From Chromatiales bacterium (GTDB lineage Bacteria > Pseudomonadota > Gammaproteobacteria > SpSt-1174): a DNA stretch of 64,000 nt. Each line of letters starts with the position of its first letter. Position 1 is the stretch's first letter. Under the pieces are notes generated by a model, which saw only the letters and a program-made list of their open reading frames with translations, was not told the origin of the DNA and ran no database searches. Positions 46,448 through 56,995 of this stretch are shown here, one piece after another. The stretch lies in assembly GCA_014762505.1 (NCBI GenBank), contig JABURS010000043.1:186001-250000 (forward strand). The letters run 5' to 3'. The position numbers and the translations under genes were made by a program.

Positions 46448-47596
46448 ATGCCATTTAAGTTGATAGCGAGAAATGGCTCGCGAATTCAACAAGTTACACG
46501 CAGGGATATCAGGCAGATGGATTTTCCAAATCCCGCGTCAGGCAAGCCAAGCCCCTTTCAAATCGGCGGGTTGTTCCTGATCGCACCCAATGACTACCTG
46601 AGAATCTATGGGCACTCGATGCGTCGGGCGTTCGCAGATATGGGGCATGAGTCTACGTGGAAGGGGTTGGAGCGCTGCGCTGAAAATAAAAAGCCTCCGT
46701 CCGCGCGCCTCCAGAACAAGATTGTGTCGATGCTTTCGGATGAGGCACTGCGTGGTCGTGGAGAAGCGTTGCTAGAAGAACTTGTCGCCGCAGATTCCAC
46801 TAAGCCGATTCCAGGACCTTGGGAATCCTTCCTAAATGGCATTGTGGTTGTCGGAGAAAACCAAGAATTCTCGTATCTGCAGAGCTACCTCATTGAGATC
46901 GAGCGATCCGAGGCTAAAGTGCTTGGGAAGTTTTACAGGGAAGATTTCGCCGGTGCCTTCGCGGACGCGCACCGCAGCGAATCTCTTTCGCCTGCCTTAT
47001 GGCCCGAACTGAGAGAGGTATTCTCAGAAGCTAGGAAGAGGAAGGAGTTGTTCGCCGTTCGTTGGTCAGTCGGATTGGAGCTGTTACTGAGCATATTCGT
47101 CGCGATAGAGGTGGATTCGGCTGATACGTTAGGTGAGGTCTCGCTGGAGTCTCTCTTGCCTCGGGGCGAGCGTAATCCGACCGCACGGTTCTTTGAGTGG
47201 CTGTTGCGAGAATCTAATTGTTGCTCGATTCCCGCGCTTTGTGACGAACTGGCTTCCTGTGGCGTCGAAATCGAAGAGTCCACGCTAGAGCGGTGGAAGG
47301 GCGGTAAGCATCAGCCCGCAGTTGAGACGGTTGAGGAGATTGCGGCGCTTTTTCAAGATGACAGCCGAAAAAGACAACTCGTTGTTTTATTGGCAAATGC
47401 TTCCCGCCTGCTCAATTTTATTGCGTATGTCTCCAATCATCTGATCGAGGCACGACATCAGGTAAAATCGGTGTTGCCGAAATGTAGTGTTTTTTTTCCG
47501 GGTTTGCCTTTCGGGTATCAGGACCTTCAGAGTTGGCTTTGGGGGCGCTATCCCGTTTGGCGCGAAATCCATAGAGTGCGAAGCACAAGGAGTTAG
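46448..47596 (+). CDS. Hypothetical protein with a possible helix-turn-helix segment
   Basis: A 382-residue protein I do not recognise. It is mainly helical and soluble, with no signal or membrane segments. Around residues 258-300 (CDELASCGVEIEESTLERWK ... QPAVETVEEIAALF) it resembles an XRE-type helix-turn-helix, so a regulatory or DNA-binding role is possible. It faces the E2-E1/JAB operon convergently, and its stop codon lies inside the shared hairpin at 47591-47618. Codon use is more AT-rich than the core genes. It is the first gene inside the island after fxsA. Confidence 0.6.
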   Translation: MPFKLIARNGSRIQQVTRRDIRQMDFPNPASGKPSPFQIGGLFLIAPNDYLRIYGHSMRRAFADMGHESTWKGLERCAENKKPPSARLQNKIVSMLSDEALRGRGEALLEELVAADSTKPIPGPWESFLNGIVVVGENQEFSYLQSYLIEIERSEAKVLGKFYREDFAGAFADAHRSESLSPALWPELREVFSEARKRKELFAVRWSVGLELLLSIFVAIEVDSADTLGEVSLESLLPRGERNPTARFFEWLLRESNCCSIPALCDELASCGVEIEESTLERWKGGKHQPAVETVEEIAALFQDDSRKRQLVVLLANASRLLNFIAYVSNHLIEARHQVKSVLPKCSVFFPGLPFGYQDLQSWLWGRYPVWREIHRVRSTRS

Positions 47597-47896: not shown

Positions 47897-48391
47897 TTAG
47901 TCGAATACTTTTGACTGAACTTCCACGACGCCACATGTGGGCCACCAGGAACTGTATTTCGATGGCTGCCAAAGTGCTCGTGTCCAGCGGGCCGGATATC
48001 CCCCCCATATGCCCATAATTGGAGGCGCGACTGCACCGTCCGTGGTGCGAGCTATCTGGTGGAGCGTTTTGCGGTCTGTGGAGCTGGTTATCGGGCGCCC
48101 ATGGGGGTGAGTGTGCCAGTCCCCAAGATAGAGTGCAGTGCCTTTTGTTTGTTCGAATAGCCTTGTGATCTCGTCCTGCTGAAACCCGTCATCAGGCTCG
48201 AACCCATGCCGAGTCGACTTGGATAGCGGTCCCGGGCCGATGATATGGGTCACCACTAAGTGCGGATCATCCGTGCAATACCCTAATAGCATGCCGCCAA
48301 CTTCGTATGGGTAACAATGGTCGGCAAGCGCCTCGATCGTCTCGACGACTTCACGTTGTAGCCATACCAAGCCAGTCGATTTCCTAATCAT
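47897..48391 (-). CDS. JAB/JAMM metalloprotease (Cap3/deubiquitinase-like)
   Basis: A 164-residue stand-alone JAMM-domain protein with all expected zinc-site residues. Glu30 is in YEVGGMLLG, H93-x-H95-x7-S103-x2-D106 reads HTHPHGRPITSSTD, and a bulky hydrophobic insertion follows. This is the isopeptidase fold found in eukaryotic deubiquitinases, in Cap3 of type II CBASS, and in bacterial ubiquitin-like (Bil) systems. Its gene overlaps the E2-E1 gene by 8 nt, so it presumably removes or processes whatever that enzyme attaches. No CD-NTase is present. Confidence 0.93.
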   Translation of the reverse strand: MIRKSTGLVWLQREVVETIEALADHCYPYEVGGMLLGYCTDDPHLVVTHIIGPGPLSKSTRHGFEPDDGFQQDEITRLFEQTKGTALYLGDWHTHPHGRPITSSTDRKTLHQIARTTDGAVAPPIMGIWGGYPARWTRALWQPSKYSSWWPTCGVVEVQSKVFD

Positions 48392-50099
48392 GGCTAGGGC
48401 ACTCTGGGTGGCGCGGAATTTCCCCGGTGCTGATCGTGGGGGCCGTAATCTTCCCGCTATCGTCCCAGAGATTGATCACCATCCAGTCGTAGCTAGTATC
48501 TGGATAGGCTTCAGGATGTTGGCGGCAAAGCGTGCTGACAGCCAGTCGGCTGGCGTTAAGGCTGACTTGATCAAGGTCCATTCCCGTTCCGGGGAATGCC
48601 GGGTGAAAGCAACCCAGCGGCTGGATATGTGGCGGGTTCTTGTCTTCTACGGGGTGCGGGATCAGTGCCCCTGTGTGGCGCTCAAGACATCCCCAGCATC
48701 CTTCGGTCTTGCCGGGTACGATCCTCCAAATCAAGCCGCCACGGGCGCCATAGGTGCTGCTGGCTCCTAAGATTGGAATATTCCTTTCTCGAGCGTATTC
48801 CGTCAGGAAATGCGTAATGCAGTACTCCGCGGTTGCATCAATCACGAGATCGGCTTCAGGGAGTGCGTCATCGAGGACCGCCGCCTCTCCTCGTGAATCA
48901 GCACGCTTTGCCTCGCCAATGAATCCAGCGAATCCCGTGACCTCCAAAAAGGGGTACTCGATCTTTAGTATTTGGGCTAACTGAAACGCTTTTAAGTGTC
49001 CCGTGCAAGCAAAGCCATACTGCCAGCGAACAGTATTGGCGAATTGAATATGGTCGCCGTCCACTATGTGAAGTCGACCAATTCCCGCACGTGCCAACTG
49101 ATAGGCAATAGCAGAACCAATAGCGCCGGCGCCAACTAGAAGTATCTTTTTGTTGGCTAATGGGCTCAGCATCGGTATCCGAGCCTGCCAAGTCTTTCGA
49201 TCAACTCGATCAGCGCGAGCTAGATAGTAAATTTCTTCCCGGTGTCTGTTCTTTTTTCCCTTGCGCAGATCCTTTTGGCGCACAATAAAAAGCCAATGTT
49301 CTTCAGTCTTGCCTGCCTCAATCTCGTCAGGGAAAAGTACGCCGACGATATCAGGTCCACCTTGATACTTCGGCTTCAATAGATCCGGGTAGTGTGTCAG
49401 TACATGAGTAAGAACTCGTTTTTCATCGCCATTCGGGGGAGGAGTATCAAGCCGGACCCACCGTCCATGAAACGTATGACCCTTGAGCATCGGATTGGTC
49501 GTAATGGAATCATCGAGCGTTCCGATTACATTTGCTTGCTCATCCAAAATCTGCATGGCCGCGGCGCGAACTACGCGCATATCCATCGGCTTTTCCTGGC
49601 AGGTAAACGTGATCGTGCCTCGACGGATACTCTTATCAATCGAATACTGGTCGACCGCAACGAAGGAGCCTGGGTGATACAGCATTTGTCCGCTGACCTG
49701 GAACCCCTCTTGAGTTTCATCAGGGAGATACCCATCAGGGTGTTGATGTTCGACGATCAGTTTCGGGATTTGCTCCGCGAGGTACCCGGCAAGCGTGTCG
49801 CTTGTATGCCAGTGTGTGAGCGGCTTTTCCAACATGCACACGAGACCGCTGCTGTCCTCGATGTGCCTGCCGTTCGGGAGATCGCGAGAGAATACTTCGG
49901 GAGGGAAGAAAGGGAAGTCCGGTGGATACCATGCTTCGATTCTGTAGTCTTGTCCTTCATGCGGGAAGACCAAGTGAAGAACGAGCCTTCCTTTGGCTCG
50001 TTGGTCTCCATCTTCCTCAAATTCGTAACCAGCTGTGGCCAGGGCGTCCTTTTCCCGCTTCCAGATCTCGGGCCACCGATCATACCAGGGGGCTGACAT
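48384..50099 (-). CDS. E2-E1 fusion (ThiF/Cap2-like ubiquitin-conjugation enzyme)
   Basis: A 571-residue two-domain enzyme. Residues 1-~125 form an E2-like (UBC) fold with YPPDFPFFPPEVF and a candidate catalytic Cys88 in SSGLVCML. A middle linker (~140-300) has no recognised motif. Residues ~310-571 form an E1/ThiF domain with nucleotide loop G323-A-G325-A-I-G328 and the acidic pair D347/D349. The LVIDATAEY strand and C468-x2-C471 with further cysteines at 497 and 525 are also present. This order (E2 then E1 in one chain) is that of CBASS Cap2. Its start overlaps the stop of a 40-residue peptide gene (TAATG), and its end overlaps the JAB gene. It should adenylate a C-terminus and pass it via a thioester to a target. 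Confidence 0.93.
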   Translation of the reverse strand: MSAPWYDRWPEIWKREKDALATAGYEFEEDGDQRAKGRLVLHLVFPHEGQDYRIEAWYPPDFPFFPPEVFSRDLPNGRHIEDSSGLVCMLEKPLTHWHTSDTLAGYLAEQIPKLIVEHQHPDGYLPDETQEGFQVSGQMLYHPGSFVAVDQYSIDKSIRRGTITFTCQEKPMDMRVVRAAAMQILDEQANVIGTLDDSITTNPMLKGHTFHGRWVRLDTPPPNGDEKRVLTHVLTHYPDLLKPKYQGGPDIVGVLFPDEIEAGKTEEHWLFIVRQKDLRKGKKNRHREEIYYLARADRVDRKTWQARIPMLSPLANKKILLVGAGAIGSAIAYQLARAGIGRLHIVDGDHIQFANTVRWQYGFACTGHLKAFQLAQILKIEYPFLEVTGFAGFIGEAKRADSRGEAAVLDDALPEADLVIDATAEYCITHFLTEYARERNIPILGASSTYGARGGLIWRIVPGKTEGCWGCLERHTGALIPHPVEDKNPPHIQPLGCFHPAFPGTGMDLDQVSLNASRLAVSTLCRQHPEAYPDTSYDWMVINLWDDSGKITAPTISTGEIPRHPECPSHD

Positions 50100-50221
50100 T
50101 AGGCGACTTTACGCGGGCCCTTCGGGCGAGGCGGCTGTTCCGGGGGCCGGTTATCCGGCGGCCCTTTTGGAACATCGGGATGATCGGGTTTGTTAGGATG
50201 GTTTTGGTTTTCACCGGACAT
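50099..50221 (-). CDS. 40-residue proline-rich peptide leading the E2-E1/JAB operon
   Basis: A 40-codon reading frame with a good ribosome-binding site (GAGGAG, 7 nt before the ATG). Its stop codon overlaps the E2-E1 start as TAATG, so the two should be translationally coupled. The peptide contains about a third proline plus Asn, Asp, Lys and Arg, has no hydrophobic core, and ends P36-R37-K38-V39-A40. It is too short and too polar for a beta-grasp ubiquitin-like protein. Given its position, where CBASS has the CD-NTase and Bil systems have a ubiquitin-like gene, I infer that it may be the modifier whose C-terminal Ala is activated. A start two codons upstream is possible but lies too close to the ribosome-binding site. 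Confidence 0.6.
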   Translation of the reverse strand: MSGENQNHPNKPDHPDVPKGPPDNRPPEQPPRPKGPRKVA

Positions 50222-50405
50222 AATCATGCTCCTCAAGTGTCTGTGATCGACCACTTCAAGATGGGGGGTTCTTACTGAGAATTCAAGCGTTAATAGTACG
50301 GTTTTGCCGAAATAACCGGAGGATAAGCTGTGGATAAAAAAGGTCGTCGGTCCACCCTTTTGGATTACTATTGTAACTGCGATTAATTCGCGTTTGGGGC
50401 TGCTT

Positions 50406-51165
50406 ATGTCGTTCGACAGAGCTTATAGGTTTTCAAGGCCCATACCGATTATTCGGTGATAACAGCCTTTTTTCCGCATTTCCTGAGGAGTTCTCGGGGG
50501 TTTACGTATGGTGCATTGATGCTGGAGATCGCGTGCTCCCCTACTATGTGGGTATGTCAGAGCAGGTTCTTTACCGAACCCGCGAGCATATAAGGTTGCA
50601 TATGACCGGTAGTTACTGGGTGTACGATGCTGAGAGTCTGGCCGATGCTCGCAAGTCGGTAATCTATAAGCCGATGTCAACCGACGAAGCTTTAGCCATA
50701 GGGATCGACTTCTACCGTACGGCGCGTTCTCAACTTGAGCGTACGTGCTTGATAGTCGCGCCAATCGACGTCGACCGGGCATGGCTGCTGCGAGTGGAGT
50801 CGGCTTTGATTCGTGAGCTTGCGGCGGAACCCAACCTATCCAGAATTCAGGACAACGGGGGCGTCTCTAAACGTACGGCGGAGGGTGATCGGGTTGATAT
50901 TCCTATCTCCTTGCCCGATGTGGTGGCACTGACTCTCAAAAGCTCTCGGTATGATTCAAGGCACTTGATCAACGGTGTCAATGAAGTGGTCGCAGAGCCC
51001 GTCGGAACTGCGGATAGAGTTCATCGCAAACAGCATCTACTCGTAGGATACTTTGGCATAGTGATGTTCAGTATTCTGATAACACCGACAATCAGTGTAA
51101 TATTCATCTATTACCAGTTAATCAGTGGTTTCCGGGACATCGCTATGCGTAAACTGAAGCCATGA
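50406..51165 (+). pseudogene. GIY-YIG nuclease-domain protein with a membrane tail; apparent 1-nt frameshift near the start
   Basis: The uninterrupted frame runs from about 50377 to 51165. It reads GVYVWCIDAGDRVLPYYVGM, the GIY...YIG core of a GIY-YIG nuclease, followed by a conserved EH and GSYW, then charged sequence and a C-terminal hydrophobic segment (LLVGYFGIVMFSILITPTISV). No ATG/GTG/TTG start precedes the GIY motif in this frame. The ATG at 50406 (MSFDRAYRF) is in another frame and would join the main frame exactly if one T of the TTTT run at 50430-50433 were removed. The feature may be a real frameshift mutation, a sequencing error or a non-canonical start. It overlaps the following DUF2384 gene by 4 nt. 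Confidence 0.65.
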
Positions 51166-52151: not shown

Positions 52152-53018
52152 TCAGGATCTATCACCAAATAGATCGGCGATTGCGCCATCGAATACCCTT
52201 TCGTAGGAGAATTCCATCGGAATTCGGGGCGCGGATTGTCCTTTGTCTTTCTTCAGACAGTGAGAAATGGCTTCTTTCCCAGACACCGCCCGAGCTGCAT
52301 CGCTCTTACCAACCTGCTCGAATCCATATTGGATAATCTTCCAAAGTCTTCTTTGTCTGTTCTGATGCCAGCGCCATGCGTGATCGTGTGGGAATGGAAT
52401 GGGTTCTTGTTTGCGAAGATCTCTTTGGCAACTAGCACAGTAGCAGAATGCGTCTGGTGTCCTGACGAGAAAATCATCCGGGGCATACTCGGGCCTTTGG
52501 ATGTGTCCGCAAGTGCAAGCATTCAACATGATCGAATGGTGTTGTTCGCACATCACATAAAAGTTAAGTCGCCATTTAGCACGAAAGTAAGGGGTGTCCG
52601 CCGCCAAGCATGCTGGGCAAAACCGGTGTACTGACCCCTGGTGGTCCTTGGTGAAATACTTGATGAAGGGCTCTTGATTGAACTCGGGTCGGATAAGCCT
52701 CGCATCGAAGCTGCAACGCTTCTCGACGTCGGTCTTCAGGAACTCTTGGATATTTATCCACTGCTTGTTAGTTGCGCGAATATCTAGGTCAGAGATCAGG
52801 GTGCTGATCTCGAGGAGTCTTTTGATAGAAACAACTGGTACTCGATTCGCGTGAGAGAGCCGAAGTAACCACGATGTGAGGGATTCTCCTGGCAGAAATT
52901 CTTTATAGGAAATCAGACGATTATGAAGAGGCACCATTTCAGGGATTAAAGTGCCAGCCGGAACGACGGCGAAATTAGGGTCTACATCCTGAATCAAAGT
53001 TTCGTTCTTAGCGGGCAT
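52152..53018 (-). CDS. tniQ: TniQ-family target-selection protein, second copy
   Basis: A 288-residue TniQ-type protein. The N-terminal TniQ domain (FLPGESLTSWLLRLSHANRV) is followed by zinc-binding clusters: HRFCPACLAAD ... YVMCEQHHSIMLNACTCGH, then FCYCASC. TniQ/TnsD proteins recognise the insertion site or an RNA guide and recruit TnsC. It differs in length and sequence from the neighbouring TniQ (340 residues), and its start overlaps that gene's stop by one nt. It is the last gene of the transposition operon. It could provide a second targeting specificity. Confidence 0.88.
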   Translation of the reverse strand: MPAKNETLIQDVDPNFAVVPAGTLIPEMVPLHNRLISYKEFLPGESLTSWLLRLSHANRVPVVSIKRLLEISTLISDLDIRATNKQWINIQEFLKTDVEKRCSFDARLIRPEFNQEPFIKYFTKDHQGSVHRFCPACLAADTPYFRAKWRLNFYVMCEQHHSIMLNACTCGHIQRPEYAPDDFLVRTPDAFCYCASCQRDLRKQEPIPFPHDHAWRWHQNRQRRLWKIIQYGFEQVGKSDAARAVSGKEAISHCLKKDKGQSAPRIPMEFSYERVFDGAIADLFGDRS

Positions 53019-54040
53019 TAATACTCCAGTGGTAACTCAATCTGCCAGGGGCGAGATCTACTGATGGTCCTCCTTCGTCTGCCCCACGATCGATTAAGCT
53101 GATACTCATACGCTAGCCGAATGAAGCGGAACTCCTCACTGCCCATGTCCTCCGATAGGTATTCGTATACCGCGTTATATTCTTGTCTGGTCTTGTGTTC
53201 TTCCGAGTTCGTGGTCTTGGTATCATTGCTGATTGGCAACGCTGCGAGAAACCGTTCTGGCCAGTGTGATAGAACCGTGTGAGCCCGCTCCAGCACGAGA
53301 TCCGAAGTGCTGCATTTCTTTGGTAGACGATCTTTGTGGCGGCCGGGCGCGAGAGTAGGAAGCACCTCGCCCAAGAGCCACAGTGTCTTGAATAATCCAT
53401 CGAGAGATAGATTGGCTAGTTTTTGTCTTATCTCATGCGATAGCGAGCGACACTGGGTCGGGGAGGAATGAGAATCGATGGCCCGCCGAATCAATGAGGC
53501 GATAAATAATGGGAAGCCGTCTGTGCCCAGTGCTATAGCATCGGTCAATCTGGCGCCGCAGGTGCAAATAGACACACCAGGGCGTTTCCACCGTAGAGCG
53601 CGACCACATTCATGGCAGTTGCGAAGTAATGACACATTGTGCATCGGGCAGCAGGTATTCAGCGTGAGTTCCCATTCTGCACGTAAATATGGTTCCGATA
53701 TCAGGCAGAGAGGACAATAAGCCAGGCTGCGGGACGAAATAAAATATGGTTTTGTTATTGGTTCGCCGTTTAGGCGCCACATGGTACCCCAAGCACCGGT
53801 TTTCACCCCGAAACCGAATAATTGAGAAACTTCGTCGGGGTGGCAGTTGCAAAGTTCCGCTAAGCGGCCTACGTCAGAGACTCCGGGCGGCCGCGATGTT
53901 CGGCCGTTCAAGTGTTGAAGAATCTGGTTAGGGTTCCGGAGTCCGTTTCCCTCGGTCAGCCTTAGGAGAAAACCGACTAATGACTCCCCGATTATGGGGC
54001 GACAGGTAAATAATAAGGGTATAGTCCCAAGCAAGTTCAT
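53018..54040 (-). CDS. tniQ: TniQ-family target-selection protein, first copy
   Basis: A 340-residue TniQ protein with the N-terminal signature IGESLVGFLLRLTEGNGLRNP and zinc-binding groups YCPLCLISEPYLRAEWEL ... CCPMHNVSLLRNCHECG ... CTCGARL. The C-terminal ~120 residues are of the kind that read DNA in TnsD-like proteins. The gene overlaps tnsC by 4 nt and the second TniQ gene by 1 nt. Together with that copy it probably links the TnsC ATPase to the target; which sequence it reads is unknown. Confidence 0.92.
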   Translation of the reverse strand: MNLLGTIPLLFTCRPIIGESLVGFLLRLTEGNGLRNPNQILQHLNGRTSRPPGVSDVGRLAELCNCHPDEVSQLFGFGVKTGAWGTMWRLNGEPITKPYFISSRSLAYCPLCLISEPYLRAEWELTLNTCCPMHNVSLLRNCHECGRALRWKRPGVSICTCGARLTDAIALGTDGFPLFIASLIRRAIDSHSSPTQCRSLSHEIRQKLANLSLDGLFKTLWLLGEVLPTLAPGRHKDRLPKKCSTSDLVLERAHTVLSHWPERFLAALPISNDTKTTNSEEHKTRQEYNAVYEYLSEDMGSEEFRFIRLAYEYQLNRSWGRRRRTISRSRPWQIELPLEY

Positions 54041-55005
54041 CGCCTCTTCACAAACGGGTGAGATCCCGTTCCGAAAACCTGCCGAAATGCAGCGATAAGA
54101 TCGGTCTTCCGGAGTGCGGAAGCGTTTTCAATGGATGCAGCCAACACTGCAGCCGAAAGAAGGCGACGCAAGGCGCGCATATTCCCCTTCGTACACTGGT
54201 AAATAGGATGCGCATAGCGTTCGCTGAGGAAGGAGCGCCTCTCTAGGGGAAGCGCCTCGTCGAAAGCATCAAGCACGCCATAGAATGTCGCATCAAACTC
54301 GAACGGCACAAGCCGGTGTTCTGCACTAATGCGCGACGCCAGTTGGTCGCAGATATGAAAGAATCGATCGAGCAAAGGGGTTCCGAGAAAGCCTTGGGGG
54401 ATATCGGTGTTGTCGTAGATGCGTTTGAGTGTATTCCCTATAACACTAGCGCGAGACTCTCCGCGCCCTTCCGCGAACTCCTGGGCCTCATCGATGAGTA
54501 AGAATTGTACGTTCCGGGTTCGCATACCTTCAGAAACCAAATCGCTGAGGTCGACGCGATTCTGCCCTTGGCTAAAGGGGAAGCCAAGGGCGACCAGGAG
54601 ACGACGTACCAAGTCCAGCCCCGAGAGAGAGGCTTCTAACTGGATAAAGAGGACCGGTATCGATACGCTATCATCGCCGATGATGGTGGGGTGTTTTTGA
54701 AGAAAGTGCCGACATATGAAGGACTTGCCGAGACCGCTGGCACCGACGATACGGACGCCGCCGGGGTCCGGTATCGAGGACCGCGACAAGGTTTCTTCTA
54801 GGATATTCAGGCCTTCTGCAAACTGCGGGTGCGGAACAGTAATAGTTCGGACGAACTCCGCCCGCTCCTGCGGCGTTCCTTTGAGGGCCTGCTCACGCAG
54901 TTCGGCCGGTGTTATCGAGTGAGCAACACGCTCTCCGGAAGAGCTGCTATTCGATAATGCAAGGGAGAGATTGCGGGCCTGCATCCTAGAGTACCGACCA
55001 GCCAA
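54037..55005 (-). CDS. tnsC: AAA+ ATPase TnsC/TniB
   Basis: A 322-residue AAA+ ATPase that bridges the TniQ proteins and the transposase. Walker A is GASGLGKS (88-95) and Walker B FLLIDEAQEF (168-177), with sensor and arginine-finger regions following. The size is that of the compact TniB type rather than Tn7 TnsC (~550). Its start lies within the last 20 nt of tnsB, in another frame, so the genes are coupled. ATP-dependent filament or ring formation on DNA and target immunity are the expected roles. Confidence 0.93.
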   Translation of the reverse strand: MAGRYSRMQARNLSLALSNSSSSGERVAHSITPAELREQALKGTPQERAEFVRTITVPHPQFAEGLNILEETLSRSSIPDPGGVRIVGASGLGKSFICRHFLQKHPTIIGDDSVSIPVLFIQLEASLSGLDLVRRLLVALGFPFSQGQNRVDLSDLVSEGMRTRNVQFLLIDEAQEFAEGRGESRASVIGNTLKRIYDNTDIPQGFLGTPLLDRFFHICDQLASRISAEHRLVPFEFDATFYGVLDAFDEALPLERRSFLSERYAHPIYQCTKGNMRALRRLLSAAVLAASIENASALRKTDLIAAFRQVFGTGSHPFVKRR

Positions 55006-56995
55006 ATGACGGTTTGGTAGTGATCGAAGGCCCCAAGTCGCTGCTGTCTCCTGGGTCGGAAGGAGCTGAAACAGGCTTTTCGACAGCAGTGATGATCGAG
55101 CTCGATTCGCCGGCGATGACCTGGTTAGAGTTTATGCCCGCGTACCGCGCCAGTTGCTTTTTGGGTGATGTCGATTTGCGTTCCAACTCATCCACAATCT
55201 GTGCTTGAATGAGTTCGCGGGACTTCCACAGGCTTTCATCGGTTATTTTGTCGCCATAGTTACGCCTCGCTGTGTCCCTAATCAGGTTATGCTGTAGAAG
55301 GGAGAGGCCTTCAGCATACTCGGGCCTTAAGCACGGGACGGGGAAAAACTCGCGAGTACGGGGATCCAGAACGCGGATTTGGCCGAGATCATTCTCATTT
55401 AGATGAAAAGTCACCTTGGATGATTTTCCGCCTTTCCAGCGAAACAGGTCCGCAAGCTGCGTGCTGTTACCGTAATGCAAATGGTGCTTGCGAACGCCAT
55501 CGTGACGTAAAGAGCCGGAATGCCGTGTGCCTAGTAGGGTTTCGACGACTTCCGGGTTGTGCGGGAATACGCGGGGCACCTTTTCGATGCCCTCGTTGAA
55601 AAGATCGAGCGGCCGACCGTGCTTTCGCTCCGAAAGCGAATTGTTATAGATGTCACACACCCACTTATATAGTATCCAGACAAAGCTAGTGAAGCGCACA
55701 ACAGCGTGTTTAGCAGGATCATAGTCTTTGCGGAGATCCAGTCGAGGGAACGTCTTTCCTGGCATGGTCTCGAGTAGGTAAGACAGTTCCCGGAAAAAGC
55801 GCTCTACAGGACCTTTGAACCACGGCGTTCGTGCGGCACAGTACTCATAGTGTGAACCGAGTTGTAGAACTGCCAAACGATAACGCTCGGAGAGAAAGTC
55901 AGCACCGCGATCAGTGACGTAAGTGGTGGCAAGTCCCCATGGGAGTTGATTCTCGATATCGTGAAAAAAAGCGGGGGTGTTGGTGTGTGGATAGATGGAA
56001 TGTCTAAGTGCTCCAAAGATAGAGTCAACCCGGGGCCCGGAAAACGAAATATATAGCCCAATAATGGCACCTGAGAAGCGATCTCGAATGATCGTGATCC
56101 ATGGGCGGCCGAGGGGTATGAATAGTTGATCGTCAATGACGAAAAGGTCGACTAGGGAGTGATCGATTTCGACATACTCAAGCGGATAGTCGGCTGGTAA
56201 GTGACCTTTAATCAGGCGGCACTTTCGTCGGGCCTCGGCACGCCCATGTTGCGCAACGAGGACTTCGTATCGGTCGAGTTCTCCGACGATGCGATATAGC
56301 GTGCGTTCGCTAATCTTGATTTCGATAGGGCGATTAGCTTCGACCAGTGATTGATTGAATGTGCGCAGACGTTGCTCATATTCATGATAAATACTAGATA
56401 CAGGCTGCGAGTGGGTGCATAAGTATTGCTCTTCAAGAATGTCGTCTATGATCTGTTGATGCTCACTCGAGCGCCGTTTACGCTCGGCAGGGATCGCGCG
56501 GCGATCAAGCAGGGAATATGGATCGTCATTGCTGTCCGCATAGATGCGCATCCAGCGACTTAAAGTCGACGCCGCTGGCGGTTTTTCGTCTTTCAAATCG
56601 GAGGCGGCACGGGGGATCTCGTCCTTGAGTAGGTCGAGGCAGCCGCGCGAAATACCCAGTCGTCGCATGTGGAGAATGTATCGAATACGTAACATGAGAT
56701 CGGCTTTCGCCTTCTCGTTCTCGATCTCGGATAGGTCCATGACGCGAGGTGGATCATATGGCCGCTCCAATTGATCAGGATGCAATGCCAGCTCTTTTTC
56801 TGTTGAGACAACCGGGATGATGACGACGCGACGAGACTGCAGCTCGTCGAAAAAACTAGCCTCTGTCAGATCGATGATTTCACCTGTCTGGATCGTCTCA
56901 AACTGGAGGCGGCTCCCAATACGGCGACGCAGTTCATAGGAGAGGCCATCACGCGAGATGACCAGGCCTTCCGTAAGTAGTGTACGCGCTGCCAT
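54986..56995 (-). CDS. tnsB: DDE transposase TnsB/TniA
   Basis: A 669-residue rve-type (RNase H fold) transposase. The catalytic triad is D278 (EYVEIDHS), D362 (YVTDRGADF) and E398 (WFKGPVERFF), with the usual spacing. Preceding helices form end-binding HTH domains (about 95-250). A C-terminal ~150 residues of the Mu-type beta-barrel/TnsC-interaction region follow the catalytic domain. TnsB cuts and joins the 3' ends of the element. An SH3-like N-terminal segment (about 8-65) resembles the adjacent 114-residue protein. The gene starts 2 nt after that protein's stop. Confidence 0.95.
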   Translation of the reverse strand: MAARTLLTEGLVISRDGLSYELRRRIGSRLQFETIQTGEIIDLTEASFFDELQSRRVVIIPVVSTEKELALHPDQLERPYDPPRVMDLSEIENEKAKADLMLRIRYILHMRRLGISRGCLDLLKDEIPRAASDLKDEKPPAASTLSRWMRIYADSNDDPYSLLDRRAIPAERKRRSSEHQQIIDDILEEQYLCTHSQPVSSIYHEYEQRLRTFNQSLVEANRPIEIKISERTLYRIVGELDRYEVLVAQHGRAEARRKCRLIKGHLPADYPLEYVEIDHSLVDLFVIDDQLFIPLGRPWITIIRDRFSGAIIGLYISFSGPRVDSIFGALRHSIYPHTNTPAFFHDIENQLPWGLATTYVTDRGADFLSERYRLAVLQLGSHYEYCAARTPWFKGPVERFFRELSYLLETMPGKTFPRLDLRKDYDPAKHAVVRFTSFVWILYKWVCDIYNNSLSERKHGRPLDLFNEGIEKVPRVFPHNPEVVETLLGTRHSGSLRHDGVRKHHLHYGNSTQLADLFRWKGGKSSKVTFHLNENDLGQIRVLDPRTREFFPVPCLRPEYAEGLSLLQHNLIRDTARRNYGDKITDESLWKSRELIQAQIVDELERKSTSPKKQLARYAGINSNQVIAGESSSIITAVEKPVSAPSDPGDSSDLGPSITTKPSFGWSVL

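Follow-up and report, generated by a model that had tools for sequence, protein, structure and literature searches.

The window analysed here is a stretch of 64,000 nt from a Chromatiales bacterium (contig JABURS010000043.1, positions 186,001-250,000). It contained a short proline-rich gene that was followed on the minus strand by genes for an E2-E1 fusion protein and a JAB peptidase. The features of this cassette are as follows:

50229..50234, minus strand: ribosome-binding site GAGGAG, 7 nt 5' of the peptide ATG (sequence reading)
50099..50221, minus strand: proline-rich candidate modifier peptide of 40 aa with the C-terminus PRKVA (sequence reading, and V-G-ended homologues at 57 further curated loci)
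48384..50099, minus strand: E2-E1 fusion of 571 aa with an E2 domain (H79, C88, W97), a middle domain and a ThiF/E1 domain (G323/G325/G328, D347/D349, R358, K370, D421, C468/C471, C497, C567) (Pfam, residue conservation, AlphaFold2 model)
47897..48391, minus strand: Cap3-like JAB/JAMM metallopeptidase of 164 aa, sharing its first 8 nt with the 3' end of the E2-E1 gene (Prok-JAB, 4.9e-12)

The translation of minus-strand positions 50221-50099 is MSGENQNHPNKPDHPDVPKGPPDNRPPEQPPRPKGPRKVA, followed by a stop codon. A sequence-only reading of the window had proposed this product as a disordered modifier for the adjoining enzyme, and its description of the gene was borne out: the ribosome-binding site is strong, the TAA stop of the peptide overlaps the E2-E1 ATG in a coupling TAATG, the C-terminus reads P-R-K-V-A, and proline, given as about one third, accounts for 12 of the 40 residues (30%). 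An alternative GTG start at 50254 would give a reading of 51 aa, and the ATG was preferred because it has a ribosome-binding site and fits the starts of the homologues. Promoter and terminator scans around the cassette remained at chance level. The peptide had no family match in Pfam, NCBIfam or PADLOC, and its AlphaFold2 model was without secondary structure (pTM 0.19), in agreement with the claim that it is unlike a ubiquitin-like fold; the pLDDT of 77.6 is no evidence of a predicted fold, as AlphaFold2 tells little about a proline-rich peptide. A beta-grasp fold comprises approximately 70 or more residues, which exceeds the length of this peptide.

The E2-E1 protein matched ThiF in Pfam (1.7e-21) and scored 25.2 bits for Prok-E2_B, just under the cut-off of 25.4. 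The best Foldseek match of its AlphaFold2 model (mean pLDDT 79.8), and thus its closest solved structure, was Cap2 of CBASS (7TO3, 1.5e-25); Bub proteins were more distant matches, and the E1 part also matched UBA5, ThiF, MoeB and MccB. A profile search placed Cap2 first (2.5e-19), with eukaryotic E2s weaker. Family-wide, with the window included, H79, C88 and W97 of the E2 and C497 of the E1 were invariant, and the CxxC motif (468/471), D349, R358, K370, D421 and C567, all kept in the window, were invariant or nearly so. The ATP-site residues of the E1 are intact in the window protein, and analogy to Cap2 and ThiF makes C497 the putative catalytic cysteine. The JAMM residues (E, HxHP, S and D) were kept in the JAB proteins of 48 loci and are intact in the window. 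Both enzymes fell below the NCBIfam cut-offs for named Cap2 and Cap3 proteins. No gene beyond the three was broadly conserved downstream of the cassette among the family loci.

Upstream of the cassette, positions 52152-56995 (minus strand) hold two TniQ genes, a TniB ATPase gene and a TniA-like integrase gene with a weak Mu-transpos_C match. A Tn7/Tn5053-like element may carry the cassette as cargo; a search around the three genes gave no convincing pair of transposon end repeats. A 252-aa frame (50407-51165, plus strand) adjoins the peptide gene divergently, and a 382-aa ORF (46448-47596, plus strand) is convergent with the cassette; neither matched a family in Pfam, NCBIfam or PADLOC. A part of the 252-aa frame, YYVGMSEQVLYRTREH, recalls a GIY-YIG nuclease, which we take to be a candidate likeness. 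Pairs of RES toxin and Xre antitoxin genes were located just 5' of the cassette in loci L007, L011, L014 and L016 (Sphingobium, Sinorhizobium).

A tblastn search of plasmids at E <= 1e-20 returned 13 records with 14 places, and two other member queries returned the same set. A proline-rich ORF was located directly 5' of E2-E1 in all 13 of the plasmid places examined, and most copies were unannotated, the gene being short and of low complexity. A genome-contig scan with the single window E2-E1 protein retrieved no relatives, and the E2-E1 alignment A1 contained no stretch conserved enough for scanning. A DNA motif of the E1 domain was used instead, which identified 54 loci in 84,980 species genomes and was absent from the viral contigs searched. 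In these loci the E2-E1 start was located with a profile, and the upstream region was then checked for the peptide. With genome loci chosen by this motif, a choice that could favour a subfamily, a proline-rich ORF ending in [R/K]-x-V-G, or in V-A for the window alone, was present upstream of E2-E1 in 60 of 61 testable loci (window included; some are near-identical copies); the searches of plasmids, class and phylum did not depend on the motif. Of the 60 loci, 58 (including the window) have a curated start and carry 47 unique peptides; the other two are L043, where no start codon was recognised, and L078. The sole testable locus without a peptide, L049, carries a frameshifted E2-E1. Loci without a recognisable E2 part (L031, L033) or with too little upstream DNA (L020, L032, L035, L039, L052, L053, L064) were left out of the testable count. 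The comparison of regions upstream of homologous E2-E1 genes that the sequence-only reading had proposed therefore came out in its favour, in the plasmids as in nearly all motif-selected loci.

Peptides were confirmed in Pseudomonadota, Bacteroidota, Actinomycetota (Arthrobacter, Iamia), Planctomycetota and KSB1. The cassette is rare: it occurred in 2 of the 369 genomes from the class of the window and in 2 of the 398 from its phylum, the window's genome counting in both, and in 1 of 385 from another class. L009, the only other relative in the class of the window, likewise has a peptide upstream. Broken E2-E1 genes occurred in L014, L019, L028 and L049 (Sinorhizobium, Bradyrhizobium), three of which retain the peptide ORF. 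E2-E1 was divided over two overlapping frames within the E1 part in L005, L029 and L034, and these are two annotated genes in Iamia; the division may reflect a real split, a frameshift or an error. An in-frame fusion of peptide and E2-E1 in Sphingobium L007 was considered and rejected, as the peptide there is a separate gene in another frame.

The 45 unique stand-alone peptides were 40-70 aa long and contained 37% Pro and 14% Gly. All ended in a tail of the form [R/K]-x-V-G/A, with R (39) or K (6) at position -4, V at -2 in 45 of 45, and G (44) or A (1) at -1. Two features had been singled out from the window, a C-terminal R-K-x-A/G and the length; the tail was conserved, with a basic residue at -4 throughout, and the length was kept loosely. 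Aromatic residues were lacking in 42 of the 45 peptides, so the statement that there is no hydrophobic core is valid family-wide, and 32 had no I, L, M, F, W or Y beyond Met1. The window peptide was the only one that ended in V-A. The proposal of a modifier with an activatable C-terminal Ala is thus supported as a reading, with conjugation at the strength given below, while the Ala itself is an exception to a family norm of Gly. No V-A tails were found in close relatives, and the window's order comprises only three genomes. The window E2-E1 departs from near-invariant residues of the E1 part (P353F, G354A, T501A, T503P, W556I), and these departures possibly compensate for the Ala-ending peptide, which is unique in the family.

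One or two residues followed V-G in six loci (QQ twice, LL, QG, Q and R), in Hymenobacter and Bradyrhizobium only. Such extensions suggest precursors that may be trimmed by the neighbouring JAB protease; the window peptide has no extension past V-A. Some of the Bradyrhizobium copies are pseudogenes. In two Hymenobacter loci (L050 and L060), a protein carrying two DUF1508 (YegP-type) domains terminated in the proline-rich V-G tail. The tail therefore appears portable, as if folded cargo had been joined to a tag.

The CD-NTase of type II CBASS ends in a Gly or Ala that Cap2 activates, and Cap3 takes the attached CD-NTase off again (PMC10097602, PMC11153139). The Cap2-Cap3 systems share with the present cassette the gene order modifier, E2-E1 and JAB, as well as a modifier that lacks a beta-grasp fold and ends in Gly or Ala (PMC10097602, PMC11153139). 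On the other hand, the modifier of CBASS is the CD-NTase, whereas here a peptide of 40-70 aa occupies its place. The E2-E1 gene is followed by a JAB gene as Cap2 is by Cap3, but the cassette is not a CBASS because no CD-NTase or effector gene is present. Five CBASS-like control loci contained a cyclase gene upstream of E2-E1 (annotated in L072, L075 and L076; unnamed in L071 and L074), which upholds the claim that the peptide sits where related systems encode the conjugated protein. Four of the five upstream proteins ended in Ala, three of these behind Pro-containing tails. By this analogy, the peptide looks like a cyclase tail standing alone, and the C-terminal Ala of the window would therefore be acceptable. 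A quick tree set the E2-E1 proteins of the family apart from those of seven controls; the branch had weak support (64%).

Operon type 6c, with NGR234 as its prototype, combines an E2+E1 protein with a JAB protein and has no named modifier (Iyer, Burroughs and Aravind, 2006; PMC1779556). In that paper a predicted metal-binding protein is described for 6c, and neither a Ub-like protein nor a proline-rich peptide is named (PMC1779556). Compared by this description, type 6c shares with the present cassette an E2+E1 fusion with a JAB gene next to it. The plasmid pNGR234a contained two E2-E1 places, both of which belonged to the present family. No metal-binding family was found beside the pNGR234a genes tested or among the broadly conserved downstream genes.

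Pup resembles the proposed peptide as a disordered protein that serves as a tag. However, Pup ends in Gly-Gly-Gln/Glu and is ligated by PafA via a side-chain carboxylate, without E1, E2 or JAB, whereas the present family ends in V-G or V-A and is encoded next to an E2-E1 enzyme. The Bil and Bub systems are bacterial conjugation systems of the E1/E2/JAB type with beta-grasp Ubl modifiers, and they differ from the present cassette, which encodes no such Ubl. A literature search for proline-rich or disordered modifiers activated by an E1 found no description in the papers covered, which took in no preprints and few subscription journals, so that priority is not established.

The microcin C7 pair MccB/MccA offers another model, in which an E1-type enzyme acts on the C-terminus of a short peptide without E2 or JAB and the product is a peptide antibiotic. 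By such a route, the E1 of the cassette would adenylate and modify the peptide itself to yield a small bioactive product instead of a tag on other proteins. Two points fit this route: the peptide is short and unfolded, and MccB has one of the folds nearest to that of the E1 domain. However, the invariant Cys and His of the E2 and the full JAMM motif of the JAB are kept throughout the family, and MccB-type routes are not known to include an E2 domain or a JAB peptidase. Furthermore, no conserved exporter or immunity gene was found downstream of the cassette, and its peptide ends in Gly or Ala instead of Asn. A peptide-antibiotic-like product is therefore improbable.

The peptide could also be a partner of E2-E1 that is not a substrate, such as a pseudosubstrate, chaperone or inhibitor held in the E1 site, with another host protein as the true modifier. 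Operon position and co-inheritance would also suit a partner subunit. What argues against this role is that the conserved part is the activatable C-terminus, with V-G kept even before extra residues, and that the same tail is found on the DUF1508 proteins. The probability of such a partner is accordingly small.

The substitution pattern of the peptide gene bears on whether its product matters at all. In protein-guided alignments of pairs with at least 70% protein identity, a choice that leans towards this outcome, pS was larger than pN in 19 of 20 disjoint pairs; closely related same-genus pairs are little affected by the choice. In the pair L004/L051, 34 synonymous versus seven nonsynonymous differences were observed over 57 codons. 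Synonymous sites in the peptide-gene pairs were near saturation while the amino acids stayed. Stop codons, indels or a lack of protein-level constraint in homologous loci had been named in advance as evidence against the peptide; this pattern was looked for, and the dominance of synonymous changes favoured the peptide. A chance scan covered 8,272 stop-terminated ORFs of at least 30 codons in 54 genome loci. Outside the cassettes as delimited, 36 ORFs had at least 30% Pro in their last 30 aa, and the sole V-G ender among them was the cassette peptide of L043; thus no non-cassette ORF among the 8,272 combined a Pro-rich tail with V-G. Seven control loci with other Cap2-type or ThiF proteins contained no such proline-rich V-G ORF either. 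These results show that the peptide is a conserved gene that belongs with E2-E1 and JAB.

A leader ORF that merely couples the translation of E2-E1, with a product of no role, would account for the strong ribosome-binding site and the TAATG overlap in the window. It is contradicted by the conservation of amino acids and C-terminus in a gene whose synonymous sites are close to saturated. The distance to E2-E1 varies across loci from overlap to tens of bases, and in two loci the tail is fused to folded domains, which leaves this explanation very improbable. A metal-binding His/Pro-rich peptide tied to nearby metal-resistance genes was rejected on His counts and is hardly credible. In its favour, several peptides are rich in His, and copper or RND efflux genes adjoin the cassette at some loci. 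Against it, His ranges from 0 to 7 per peptide with none in two members, only one Cys occurs in the 45 peptides taken together, and the metal genes are plasmid neighbours that are not common to most loci.

The peptide, E2-E1 and JAB genes are thus interpreted, with considerable confidence, as a minimal three-gene ubiquitin-like conjugation cassette with an extended, proline-rich modifier that lacks a beta-grasp fold. The gene for this peptide is a conserved, co-inherited coding gene at a fixed position, its tail is under selection, and the catalytic residues of its neighbours are intact. Because it is conserved in at least five phyla and nearly all members end in Val-Gly, the peptide is very probably the tag of a ubiquitin-like conjugation system. 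In the proposed mechanism, the E1 domain would bind the [R/K]-x-V-G/A tail and adenylate its carboxylate using ATP. The acyl group would then move to Cys497 of the E1 and on to Cys88 of the E2, which would hand it to a target amine, probably a lysine. The JAB protease would take the peptide off its target, and it would also trim the precursor where one or two residues follow V-G. Activation of the peptide C-terminus is very likely, and its conjugation and deconjugation are likely. The plasmid location, the TniQ/TniB-type block in the window and the RES-Xre pairs elsewhere suggest, as a guess, a role in defence or competition on mobile DNA.

The usual definition of a ubiquitin-type system rests on its beta-grasp modifier, and CBASS illustrates that a large enzyme can replace it. 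The present family probably represents a new class of modifier, namely a fold-free proline-rich peptide that passes through a full E1-to-E2 thioester cascade via its C-terminal Val-Gly (or Val-Ala), is put on cell proteins and is removed by JAB, with an E1 that needs no folded ubiquitin-like domain. If this is true, the modifier would be reduced to a tail in this family, and minimal E1 recognition could be tested directly with short synthetic peptides. The peptide would also supply the missing modifier for the E2-E1/JAB cassette of mobile DNA and would provide a natural link between the cyclase tails of CBASS and stand-alone tags.
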